From positions 1 through 34,893 of the forward strand of contig JACAFE010000014.1 in NCBI GenBank assembly GCA_013388435.1: a DNA stretch of 34,893 nt, written 5' to 3'. Shown in pieces: positions 31,761 to 34,893 of this stretch. The notes beneath the pieces are model-generated. The model saw only the letters and a list, made by a program, of their open reading frames with translations. It was not told the origin of the DNA and did no database searches. The position numbers and the translations under genes were made by a program. Numbering within the stretch: the first letter of the stretch is position 1; the number at the start of each line of letters is the position of its first letter. Source of the stretch: Nitrospirota bacterium (GTDB lineage Bacteria; Nitrospirota; Thermodesulfovibrionia; Thermodesulfovibrionales; SM23-35).

Positions 31761-31940
31761 TTCAATAGTTGAAAACCATTTTTCTTAAAATAGAAAATGC
31801 AATATAAGTAATGAAAATGTTTGGAAAAAATTTATTTTTTGATACCTTGAGTAAATTTAAAAATGCATTGCAATGAATATGTTATGAATAAGTAAACATA
31901 ATGTCATAATCTGAAAATATCTCAATTTATTGACACTTAT

Positions 31941-32429: not shown

Positions 32430-32885
32430 ATTACACCTTTATAAAAGACCACTGGCTTAAGGCTGAAGTCTTATAAGTGCTTGAAATTATAGCTAACCCA
32501 AAAGCACAAATGAATATTCTTAATTAATAAAACTCTCCTTCTATAATAGAAACAATTAGTTAGCAGTAAACAAATCTAAACAAAAGAAGAATAAAAATAT
32601 ACAGCCAGAATATACCACAAAAGCAGAAATTAATAAAGAGAGATAAAATTTAATCAGTATAATTTAATAGGAAGTTTTTTCTTTGCCGCATGTATAAATG
32701 GGTGTTAAAGGTCAACTTTCCATCTTGGAAAGGGCATATTTGTTTCGCTTTTACAAACTCATGCCTGCTTAAAAACTCCGTAAACATTGGAAGGTCATAA
32801 AAAAGGGCGTACTCAAAGAGTATCTTTCCATAGGCCATAGGCTGAAGGCTGAAGGATAATAAAAAACAGGCCATAGGCTGAAGGC
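32430..32885. repeat. Gap with heptad-type repeats next to the S23-family gene
   Basis: No convincing gene is seen. GGCTTAAGGCTGAAG occurs at about 32456–32470. From 32828 a block of seven-base units (CCATAGG, GCTGAAG and variants) begins; its first 37 bases (32828–32864) return exactly at 33331–33367. A minus-strand frame over 32650–32919 is partly a translation of these repeats and is not accepted as a gene. Confidence 0.6.
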
Positions 32886-33472
32886 TTAAGGCTGAAGCTG
32901 TGATTTTTGAATGCTCCATAACAGTTTGCCTACTTCAACTATTAACATTTTTGATTCTTTAATATCTGCTTCATTTATATAACCTAAATCTACTGAGAAT
33001 TCTAAAAGATATTCAACCTCTGCGACAGAACCAAGCGCTATGTCTATGAAATGTACAAATTCTTTTTTGCTTTTTCTGTTGTAGCCTTCAACAATGTTTG
33101 TTGGTATCGATAAAACAGCTCTTCTTAGTTGAGTTGTAAGCGCAAATTGCTCATGTCTTGGAAATGATTCGGTTAACTTGTAAATCAATAACGCAAGCTT
33201 ATGAGCTTTCTGCCATGCAATTAAATTTTTGTAATTAGCCATTAAATTGATTTTATCATAACTTCAGCCTTAAGCCTAAAGCCTTAAGCCTAAAGATATT
33301 CCTTATAGGTAGGCTCGCAATGAAAATAGGCCATAGGCCATAGGCTGAAGGCTGAAGGATAATAAAAGCTTTGAGTTATAAGCAAAGTTTTATTTCATAG
33401 AATGTTTGTTTTCTTCAGCCTTAAGCCTAAAGCCTTAAGCCTAAAGATATTCCTCATAGGTAGGCTCGCAAT
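32828..33472. repeat. Repeat-bordered segment carrying the S23-family gene
   Basis: A 37-base direct repeat lies at 32828–32864 and 33331–33367. A perfect 16-base inverted pair (AGGCTTAAGGCTGAAG at 32882–32897 and its complement at 33262–33277) frames the S23-type gene. A 60-base direct repeat (33262–33321 and 33413–33472, one T/C difference) joins heptad units to the last 24 bases of a CRISPR repeat. The units follow a seven-base rhythm, for example CCTTAAG CCTAAAG CCTTAAG. Confidence 0.7.
32886..33242 (-). CDS. Four-helix-bundle protein (S23/IVP family)
   Basis: The 118 residues match the S23 ribosomal/intervening-sequence protein family: YKNLIAWQKAHKLALLIY, then FPRHEQFALTTQLRRAVLSI, PTNIVEGYNRKSKKEF and a C-terminal long helix with LLEFSVDLGYI. 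The fold is a four-helix bundle that assembles as a pentamer; related proteins occur in 23S rRNA intervening sequences and as Avd in retroelements. No rRNA or retroelement is here. Its last codons lie within the heptad repeats (32882–32897), so the repeat has entered the coding end. Confidence 0.9.
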   Translation of the reverse strand: MANYKNLIAWQKAHKLALLIYKLTESFPRHEQFALTTQLRRAVLSIPTNIVEGYNRKSKKEFVHFIDIALGSVAEVEYLLEFSVDLGYINEADIKESKMLIVEVGKLLWSIQKSQLQP

Positions 33473-33606
33473 TATAAAGATGACTTGAAGATGTGGAATA
33501 CTGGGACCAGTTTCAATTCCTCATAGGTAGGCTCGCAATATGCCTAAAAATGAATTTCTTATGATTGCCTTGCGTTGTTTCAATTCCTTATAGGTAGGCT
33601 CGCAAT
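33298..33606 (-). CRISPR. Short CRISPR array: two full repeats, two spacers, degenerate distal end
   Basis: Full 30-base repeats lie at 33577–33606 and 33510–33539. On the minus strand they begin ATTGCGAGCC and end in ATTGAAAC, the usual 3' end. A truncated copy lacking that end is at 33449–33472. The two spacers (33540–33576 and 33473–33509) are each 37 bases. A further truncated copy (33298–33321) is separated by 127 bases of heptad repeats, so it is not part of the regular array. The repeats vary only T/C at one position. The array runs away from cas2, with the leader at the high-coordinate side. Confidence 0.9.
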
Positions 33607-33756: not shown

Positions 33757-34020
33757 TTAATAGATAAATTCTTCACCTCCTTTTTTTACTCCTATTATTT
33801 CTCGTTTTGTGTACCATTCTGTTCTAAATGTATAAATAATTACAGAATCCTCTTCTTCTTTAATAATTTTTTTTATTTCCAATTTTAGCTTCTCAAGATT
33901 TGATTCCGTTATTTCACCTTCAAAAACAGAATTTTGAACCCAATAAAGATATTTCCTGCAGGTTTTTAAAACCTTTGATACTCTTTTCTCATTTATGTCA
34001 TAAACAAGAATTACTTGCAT
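33757..34020 (-). CDS. cas2: CRISPR-associated protein Cas2
   Basis: At 87 residues it is normal for Cas2, which bridges two Cas1 dimers during spacer capture. It starts with VILVYDINEKRVSKVLKTCR, having the conserved Asp after the first strand. YLYWVQNSVFEGEIT follows, as in the type I-B group. The ATG directly follows the cas1 stop, so the pair is translated together. Confidence 0.95.
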   Translation of the reverse strand: MQVILVYDINEKRVSKVLKTCRKYLYWVQNSVFEGEITESNLEKLKLEIKKIIKEEEDSVIIYTFRTEWYTKREIIGVKKGGEEFIY

Positions 34021-34893
34021 TTACCAATTAGAAATAAACGGTTTATATTCTTTTTCTCCCATTAGATGTTTTTGAATTTTATAAAGTTCAAGACGAATCA
34101 TCTGTCTGTATGAAACATTTCTTCCAAGTTCTTTATGCTGAATCGTGCTACTTATTCTTTCATCCATCTCACGAATAAATATTTCTCTTCCTTTATCATT
34201 TAAAACTACGCCATTAAGTTTTTGTTCAAAATGTTGTTTCTTTAACATTCCCTTATTAATAACTGTAAAAATTACCCTATCAGCAATGATTGGCTTAAAT
34301 ATTTCTGCAACATCAAGATTTAAAGTAAATCTCCTAAAGTTTGTTGCGTGAAGAAATCCAATTCGCGGGTCAAGATGTGTCTGGTAAATTTCACTCAGAC
34401 AATATGTATAGATAAGAGAATTACCAAAGCTGATCAATGCATTAAGTCTATTTTTTGGTGGTCTTTTTGTTCTTTCTTCAAATATAAAATGTTCATTATC
34501 AAGAATCCTATCAAATGCATAATAATATTGCTCTCTAATATTTCCCTCTATAGCCATAAGTTCATTTGTATCTTCACATGATTGAATAGAATTAGAAATA
34601 CTAATAATTTTCTCAATTATTTCTGAAAGTGGCTTCCCTCTTGCTGAATAATAAGCAAGTACTTTTTTAATATTTTCAATTGCGCCAAAAACGAACTTTT
34701 TGGCAAGTGCAAGTCTTTTATCATTGTCAAGGTAATGTTCAGCTTGCTTTAGAATCATATATCCTGAATTTAAGTGTTCTCTCGGATAAAATGAGCCTAT
34801 ATAATAGCCATAATAATTAAAAAAGTGCATTATGATTTCACTCTCTGTAAGAAACTCAAGAAGGCGTTTATTAATAGTAACCTCACCAAATAT
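34021..34893 (-). CDS. cas1: CRISPR-associated endonuclease Cas1 (N-terminus beyond the window)
   Basis: Cas1 is the integrase of spacer acquisition. The frame is open through the window edge; IFGEVTINKRLLEF precedes the internal ATG at 34830, so the true start lies outside. HFFNYYGYYIGSFYPRE and NALISFGNSLIYTYCLSEIY resemble the I-B type. The metal-binding residues are the Glu in LMAIEGNIRE, the His in RIGFLHATN, and the acidic residue in LDVAEIFKP. It precedes cas2 without a gap. Confidence 0.95.
   Translation of the reverse strand: MFGEVTINKRLLEFLTESEIIMHFFNYYGYYIGSFYPREHLNSGYMILKQAEHYLDNDKRLALAKKFVFGAIENIKKVLAYYSARGKPLSEIIEKIISISNSIQSCEDTNELMAIEGNIREQYYYAFDRILDNEHFIFEERTKRPPKNRLNALISFGNSLIYTYCLSEIYQTHLDPRIGFLHATNFRRFTLNLDVAEIFKPIIADRVIFTVINKGMLKKQHFEQKLNGVVLNDKGREIFIREMDERISSTIQHKELGRNVSYRQMIRLELYKIQKHLMGEKEYKPFISNW

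Follow-up and report, generated by a model that had tools for sequence, protein, structure and literature searches.

An S23-family gene in a Nitrospirota CRISPR array as probable cargo of a small mobile unit with short-period repeat arms

Does an S23-family gene that lies among seven-base repeats belong to a small mobile unit? The question was raised by a 34,893-nt contig of a Nitrospirota bacterium (JACAFE010000014.1; this whole stretch is called the window below). An initial annotation, made from the letters alone, had picked out a gene of the family found in rRNA intervening sequences and proposed that, with its flanking repeats, it forms a free-standing mobile cassette of the same kind. 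The assignment to the S23 family was confirmed by a profile search, in which the full-length protein scored 131.6 bits with PF05635 (cut-off 33.8) and 121.6 bits with TIGR02436 (cut-off 24). Among S23 proteins four residues (Q, N, E and E) are nearly invariant. A monomer model of the protein (pLDDT 96) had a TM-score of 0.96 to 2gsc and also matched 2rld. The predicted fold matched Avd as well (TM ~0.8), and the score against the Avd profile was 46 bits, below the cut-off of 80. No rRNA is present in the window; the S23 unit sits in a CRISPR array beside cas1-cas2 and not inside an rRNA gene (Table 1), a setting absent from the initial annotation.

Table 1. Features of the window around the S23 gene (positions are those of the window)
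Feature	Position	Strand	Remarks
S23 (23S_rRNA_IVP, four-helix bundle) gene, 118 aa	32886..33242	-	PF05635 E=1.6e-38; TIGR02436 E=1.6e-35
5' heptad arm of S23 unit, sense ATCTTTAGGCTTAAGGCTTTAGGCTTAAGGCTGAAG, grafted on CRISPR repeat	33262..33297	-	inverted to 32868-32904; TRF period 7/14
3' heptad arm of S23 unit, inner block	32868..32897	-	
3' heptad arm of S23 unit, outer block (37-nt direct repeat), abutting gene remnant	32828..32864	-	homology of relatives ends here
S23-less miniature unit	33328..33448	-	arms 33413-33448 and 33328-33367 around ~45 nt; RNA fold z=-4.7
CRISPR repeat remnant, 24/30 nt, joined to 5' arm of S23 unit	33298..33321	-	
CRISPR repeat remnant, 24/30 nt, joined to miniature unit	33449..33472	-	
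Two intact CRISPR repeats	33510..33606	-	33510-33539 and 33577-33606, 37-nt spacer between
cas2	33757..34020	-	PF09827
cas1, type I-B (Cas1b)	34021..34830	-	TIGR03641 395.6 bits
Solitary heptad block GGCTTAAGGCTGAAGT, half of 16-bp inverted pair	32454..32469		
174-bp gene remnant, broken exactly at outer arm	32655..32828	-	gene intact in relatives G004, G012, G013, G015

The S23 gene lies downstream of the type I-B cas1-cas2 genes, in the same direction and within the CRISPR array. Read along the minus strand, two intact CRISPR repeats (ATTGCGAGCCTACCTATGAGGAATTGAAAC and a copy that differs from it by one base) precede two cut repeats (copies at 33443 and 33292), which keep 24 bases, ATTGCGAGCCTACCTATRAGGAAT, and in which the last six (TGAAAC) give way to ATCTTTAGGCTTAAGGC..., with which a heptad array begins. 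Behind the first of the cut repeats comes a 120-bp unit without S23, consisting of an array, ~45 nt and the inverted array, and behind the second comes the S23 unit, consisting of an array, S23 and the inverted array as two blocks. At its outer end the S23 unit meets the 174-bp remnant, and the homology of four relatives that carry the intact gene stops exactly there. S23 is the sole ORF of its unit, which encodes no transposase. Because both units have an identical junction to the CRISPR repeat, we infer that the S23-less unit is probably a duplicated, shortened copy of the S23 unit and not an independent insertion. On the mobile-unit reading, one S23 unit and a miniature copy disrupted part of the CRISPR array.

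The seven-base rhythm described in the initial annotation was recovered as TRF periods of 7 and 14, while the two repeats that it had named as borders of the gene had to be reinterpreted. The 37-base perfect direct repeat was confirmed (32828-32864 = 33331-33367), but its copies do not mark the ends of a single cassette: one is the outer 3' arm of the S23 unit and the other that of the S23-less unit. The 16-base perfect inverted pair likewise exists (32454-32469 / 33261-33276), but it does not flank the gene, its left half lying ~400 bp away; the inverted pair that actually flanks S23 is 32868-32904 / 33255-33291, 37 nt long and 81% complementary. Folding of the window units as RNA, which had been suggested as a check, gave strong structures (z=-3.7 and -4.7). 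Elsewhere in the window, positions 31794-31890 hold a short dispersed repeat, of which ~55 nt (within 31794-31860) recur with 80-90% identity at tens of sites across the genome and the bacterial family to which it belongs, often at contig ends.

Heptads resembling GGCTTAAGGCTGAAG (AGGCTGA) were found in ~50 places of the window's genome, with 79 hits against 0 for the reversed pattern. Most of these arrays lie away from S23, in mosaic intergenic repeats, and this counts against the mobile-unit view. The outcome that the initial annotation had named as refuting was therefore seen only in part: the heptads do recur in this genome, mostly without S23, but nearly every S23 gene across bacteria has heptad-type arms (see below). 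The mosaic repeats in these ~50 places (L062-L105) also carry AGAGCGA-type heptads, GCGTTTATTGCGTTATA arrays and the palindrome CCCCCTTAATCCCCCTTAACAAAGGGGG; several end in AATAATGCAGACATT or its complement, and many are at contig ends. Three S23 genes are present in the window's genome: the window copy, a copy in C19, and a divergent copy without arrays. The C19 copy is flanked on both sides by another heptad, AAGATTC/AAAATTC, and a wider survey of S23 genes was therefore carried out.

A gene fixed at this place in all relatives had been named as an outcome that would speak against mobility. Near relatives of the window S23 instead occupy other loci. Three of these are CRISPR arrays in a complete genome (G030) from the same taxonomic order, and the copies there have the same heptad type. 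Besides these three window-type copies, the CRISPR arrays of G030 (L135, L136, L137) hold repeated shorter units with their own arms, several of which are joined to the CRISPR repeat at an identical position. Across the phylum, period-7 arrays reached 6.1 per 100 kb in S23-rich genomes versus 0.5 in S23-free genomes, as estimated from 20-kb samples that were not chosen for S23; the samples were small.

The survey took in 151 distinct S23 genes. About half came from 80 loci in named genomes of many phyla and the others from relatives of the window's genome; the scan for the collection used a narrower alignment (A2). Arrays were scored by self-similarity at each lag in the 250 nt on either side of S23, with a threshold of 11 that was picked after a first look; scores of 10, 12 and 14 give similar results. 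Lag 7 stood out, with a mean of 15.9 upstream and 15.4 downstream versus ~4.5 at neutral lags, and there were lesser peaks at 8, 9 and multiples. No lag peaks were seen in control windows of the same loci, 10% of which reached a score of 11. At that score and within 250 nt, an array was present on at least one side of 141 of the 151 genes and on both sides of 104, and the period was equal in both arms at 99 of these 104 loci (72 with period 7, 22 with period 8, 4 with period 9 and 1 with period 6). PIN-domain genes of the same genomes had an array in 3 of 30 cases and never on both sides, against 63/70 and 78/83 for S23. A fresh set of S23 genes from plasmids and viral contigs had arrays in 27 of 31 cases, and a divergent S23 subgroup (L003, L132, L148) lacks arms. 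One query of 50,697 phage records returned no S23 gene; S23 is present in 25 viral contigs of unchecked provenance, most with arms. A motif search of the fetched loci found no S23 inside rRNA.

The two arrays of a locus are mirror images of each other. At a net score of at least 13, the upstream and downstream arrays were inverted complements of each other in 85% of loci; this score was reached by 3% of 448 mismatched arm pairs, and by 30% in direct orientation. Unit identity was 0.76 between the two arms of one locus versus 0.51 between loci of equal period. Arms most often have four to five units, the median span from arm to arm is ~506 bp, and purines predominate on the sense strand of the 5' arm in 103 of 124 cases. 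Across many phyla, S23 is the only gene of a ~500-base insertion that ends in mirror-image arrays of 7-9-base repeats. Stop codons in all frames were considered as a reason for a period not divisible by three and this was set aside: the counts (a stop in the 5' arm units of 79/124 in sense versus 46/124 in antisense) are suggestive only, and period 9 exists.

The units occupy a preferred position. Relative to the stop codon of the preceding gene, the 5' arm starts at a median of -1 (62 of 95 between -10 and +20), and the 3' arm ends 7 nt (median) ahead of the start of the following gene. Where the two neighbours point alike, S23 was co-directional with them at 99 of 104 loci. Orientation was taken from automatic ORF calls, which are wrong at some GC-rich loci, and this count is conservative because L199 and L229, called antisense, are really carA/carB and nuoC/nuoD with S23 in sense. 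Sites include carA|carB, pgk|tpi and nuoC|nuoD, the last of these twice, in two Alphaproteobacteria with different heptads. S23 also lies between cas6 and cas4 on a plasmid of Anabaena sp. 90 (L286) and between cas10 and cmr3 on a plasmid of Picosynechococcus PCC 7003 (L293), so that CRISPR loci recur as S23 sites. In a planctomycete (L222:610-4608) an S23 unit lies within the error-prone DNA polymerase gene dnaE2, where it adds ~200 residues between profile positions 566 and 580; the 1332-aa frame is open throughout, S23 itself is in another frame, and the period-8 arms are without stops.

Empty sites, which had also been proposed as a check, were found in Nostocales plasmids, although none was found for the window's own copy. 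In these plasmids a given intergenic site occurs both filled and empty, at 90-98% identity. Trichormus and Scytonema have the filled arrangement AAAGTAAT-unit-GTAATTAAC and Nostoc linckia and Aulosira the empty AAAAAGTAATTAACAAAT, at ~98% identity, with GTAAT duplicated. Plasmid pNsp_a of Nostoc ATCC 53789 has GGTTCTA-unit-TTCTAGTTATG, against GGTTCTAGGTTATG in other plasmids of the same and other strains; here TTCTA is duplicated, inside a stop codon, and the unit restores TAA. At a third site (L288 versus L294) either ATG is shared or there is an imperfect duplication of 5 bp. A clean 5-bp target duplication was thus seen at two insertions only, the others being imperfect, imprecise or unclear. 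The empty sites have neither the S23 gene nor heptad arrays, and the arrays therefore arrive with the unit. At one site, relatives have a hairpin without S23 (L271) or a shortened S23 gene (L268); in L274 an S23 gene contains an inserted S23-less unit, and a further S23-less unit was found (L299). The same S23 unit was also seen at a different place on another plasmid (L273), where 416 bp match at 82% identity. A general trait of mobile elements, the occurrence of filled and empty sites among close relatives, is thereby established for the Nostocales relatives of the window unit. The proposal of a free-standing mobile cassette akin to the rRNA intervening sequences is in this way supported for the family, by filled and empty sites, by inverted arms and by the literature on the Coxiella sequence.

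Mapped on a tree of 153 S23 proteins, the period needs at least 20 changes, compared with 31.7 when labels were shuffled (the minimum of 200 being 27). The nearest S23 relative has an equal period in 117 of 136 cases, where 82 were expected, at times across phyla, and arm unit identity decays with S23 protein distance from 0.97 to 0.58. These comparisons, which are of sequences alone, show that the arms and the S23 gene travel together. Recognition of the period by the S23 protein is compatible with the tree and is not proven by it: arms simply inherited with the gene would alone make the period follow the S23 tree.

It could be argued that the arrays are ordinary intergenic microsatellites that were there beforehand, and that S23 genes land in them or survive near them. 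Such an account would draw on the ~50 AGGCTGA places away from S23 in the window's genome and on the heptamers known from many genomes (PMC4692102, PMC4679880). We consider it very improbable, given that empty sites at 90-98% identity have no array, that the arms are inverted, locus-specific, of equal period and follow the S23 tree, and that other genes are without arrays, which are also few in S23-free genomes of the phylum. An explanation at the RNA level remains possible, though we doubt it: the arms would form a transcript hairpin that is cut by RNase III, leaving the unit harmless in mRNA, rRNA and crRNA precursors, so that selection would act on the RNA stem and movement would be rare and incidental. 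RNase III does cut the Coxiella intervening sequence at its first heptamer (PMC4990558), S23 lies in sense orientation within operons, and the window units fold well as RNA. Any inverted repeat, however, folds well as RNA, and mismatches between the arms are not biased towards G-U (178 G-U versus 197 A-C), a bias expected if sense pairing were selected, so that nothing here points to selection for base pairing within the sense transcript.

A partner acting in trans was also weighed. If a Y1/REP-type tyrosine transposase (RAYT) moved the units as it does REP hairpins, S23 would be an accessory. RAYT-type Y1_Tnp, a class assigned here from frame length and score, occurred in 27 of 32 S23-bearing and 6 of 29 S23-free genomes of the phylum sample (Fisher 6e-7), rve transposases had no such link (15/32 versus 18/29), and S23-less miniature units exist. 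The association nevertheless lies between families and is gone within families f16, f21 and f22, so it may be confounded and a Y1/RAYT partner is a lead only; moreover, S23 is retained in the units and the period follows S23. IS200/RAYT chemistry is not known to make target duplications. We regard this explanation as unlikely. The fold shared with Avd, the partner of the reverse transcriptase of diversity-generating retroelements, suggests instead that S23 might act with a reverse transcriptase in trans, the unit RNA being copied into DNA at the target, and an RNA intermediate would give a sense bias. Retro-mobility of this kind appears improbable, and a reverse transcriptase as a required partner is ruled out by its absence from many S23-bearing genomes: PF00078 is missing, for instance, from G012, which has nine S23 matches, and the search for a diversity-generating retroelement gave no PF00078 match in the window's own genome (G000).

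Our preferred reading, to which we give a probability of roughly 0.8, is that the window S23 is carried, and probably driven, by its role in a small mobile unit: it would be the cargo and, less certainly, also the agent. Such a unit consists of a 5' array (mostly of 4-5 units, with a period of 7, 8 or 9), the S23 ORF and the inverted array, ~500 bp in all and without a recombinase gene. Its insertions, in sense orientation, fall between co-transcribed genes (at stop/start junctions), within CRISPR arrays and, according to the literature, within rRNA hairpins; insertion can duplicate ~5 bp of the target, and copies that lose S23 persist as heptad hairpins or lone arrays. The gene, its arms with their inverted complementarity and common period, the junction position and sense orientation, sites with and without the unit (the empty ones lacking arrays), the S23-less derivatives and the agreement of period and S23 tree are all observed. 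As to what drives the movement, S23 acting on its own arms with borrowed cutting enzymes seems to us the most likely candidate, held only tentatively, as this is an inference and there is no direct evidence that S23 moves anything. A pentameric S23 ring might bind the arms, read the unit length and bring the ends together at a nick or break, with nucleases supplied by the host or by other elements; all of these steps are inferred. The sense bias could reflect selection for expression without a promoter of the unit's own, or a step involving the transcript. More speculatively, S23 proteins may define a class of recombinase-free mobile elements of their own, in which the pentameric nucleic-acid-binding ring recognizes the arm period (7, 8 or 9), builds or copies arms at the new site and targets stop/start junctions, CRISPR repeats and rRNA hairpins for insertion. 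The sequence of newly built arms would then drift from lineage to lineage, and most intergenic heptamers of bacteria would be S23 arms, miniatures or relics. We consider this conjecture possible but less likely than not.

The closest known counterparts are the S23-encoding intervening sequences of 23S rRNA in Coxiella and Leptospira (PMC4990558), which resemble the units described here in having an S23 ORF between inverted arms, a length of ~430 nt, a sporadic distribution and a sense orientation in a transcribed unit, and, in Coxiella, heptamers in the 5' arm. The Coxiella sequence has tandem GACAGAT heptamers before the S23 ORF, in a number that varies between strains, as well as inverted arms, and a Xanthomonas S23 protein is described as a homopentameric toroid (PMC4990558). 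The rRNA sequences sit in rRNA helices, whereas the units found here lie in CRISPR arrays or, in protein operons, where one gene stops and the next starts. Avd (PDB 4dwl, 8ub7) has the pentamer-forming four-helix fold that the S23 monomer model resembles, but the two have 15-18% identity, and Avd has a partner reverse transcriptase and no known heptad arms. MITEs and REP/RAYT elements are likewise short inverted-repeat units of intergenic space with non-autonomous copies, but S23 arms are tandem arrays that vary by locus, and the full unit encodes S23 and not a transposase. A CRISPR mining paper lists the 23S rRNA IVP among CRISPR-linked domains (PMC10910872).

Heptamer repeats have been described separately. 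The GGGAATC and GGGGA(C/T)T heptamers of Xanthomonas and Nostoc (Rehm 2015, PMC4692102) share with S23 arms the period of 7, the preference for four units and the location near stop and start codons; GGGAATC arrays in Xanthomonas lie between aligned genes, as 70-75 convergent pairs per genome. They were presented as G-quadruplex repeats, without mention of S23 or of insertion. The TAACTGA repeats of Beggiatoaceae, Cyanobacteria and Bacteroidetes (MacGregor 2015, PMC4679880) are also intergenic, of period 7, patchy across phyla and suspected of horizontal spread, and for the Beggiatoaceae arrays horizontal transmission is stated with no evident mechanism. That study names no partner gene and does not mention S23, and a TAACTGA-binding protein as a mobile element was only speculation. 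In the open-licence literature the note on the Coxiella sequence was the only published link between S23 and heptads that we found, and a description elsewhere is not excluded. The published heptamers of Xanthomonas, Nostoc, Beggiatoaceae and the Coxiella sequence fit as arms or relics of S23 units.

Two puzzles that the literature has treated apart are now linked: S23, a protein with two solved structures and no function, and the heptamers of cyanobacteria, xanthomonads and Beggiatoaceae. Both become testable in this way, with a defined unit, a protein whose candidate ligand can be read from the sequence, and natural pairs of filled and empty sites. The link would explain the presence of this ORF in rRNA intervening sequences, and insertion of S23 between operon genes offers an origin for bacterial heptamer repeats. 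CRISPR arrays and essential operons (carAB, nuoCD, pgk-tpi) are revealed as insertion sites.
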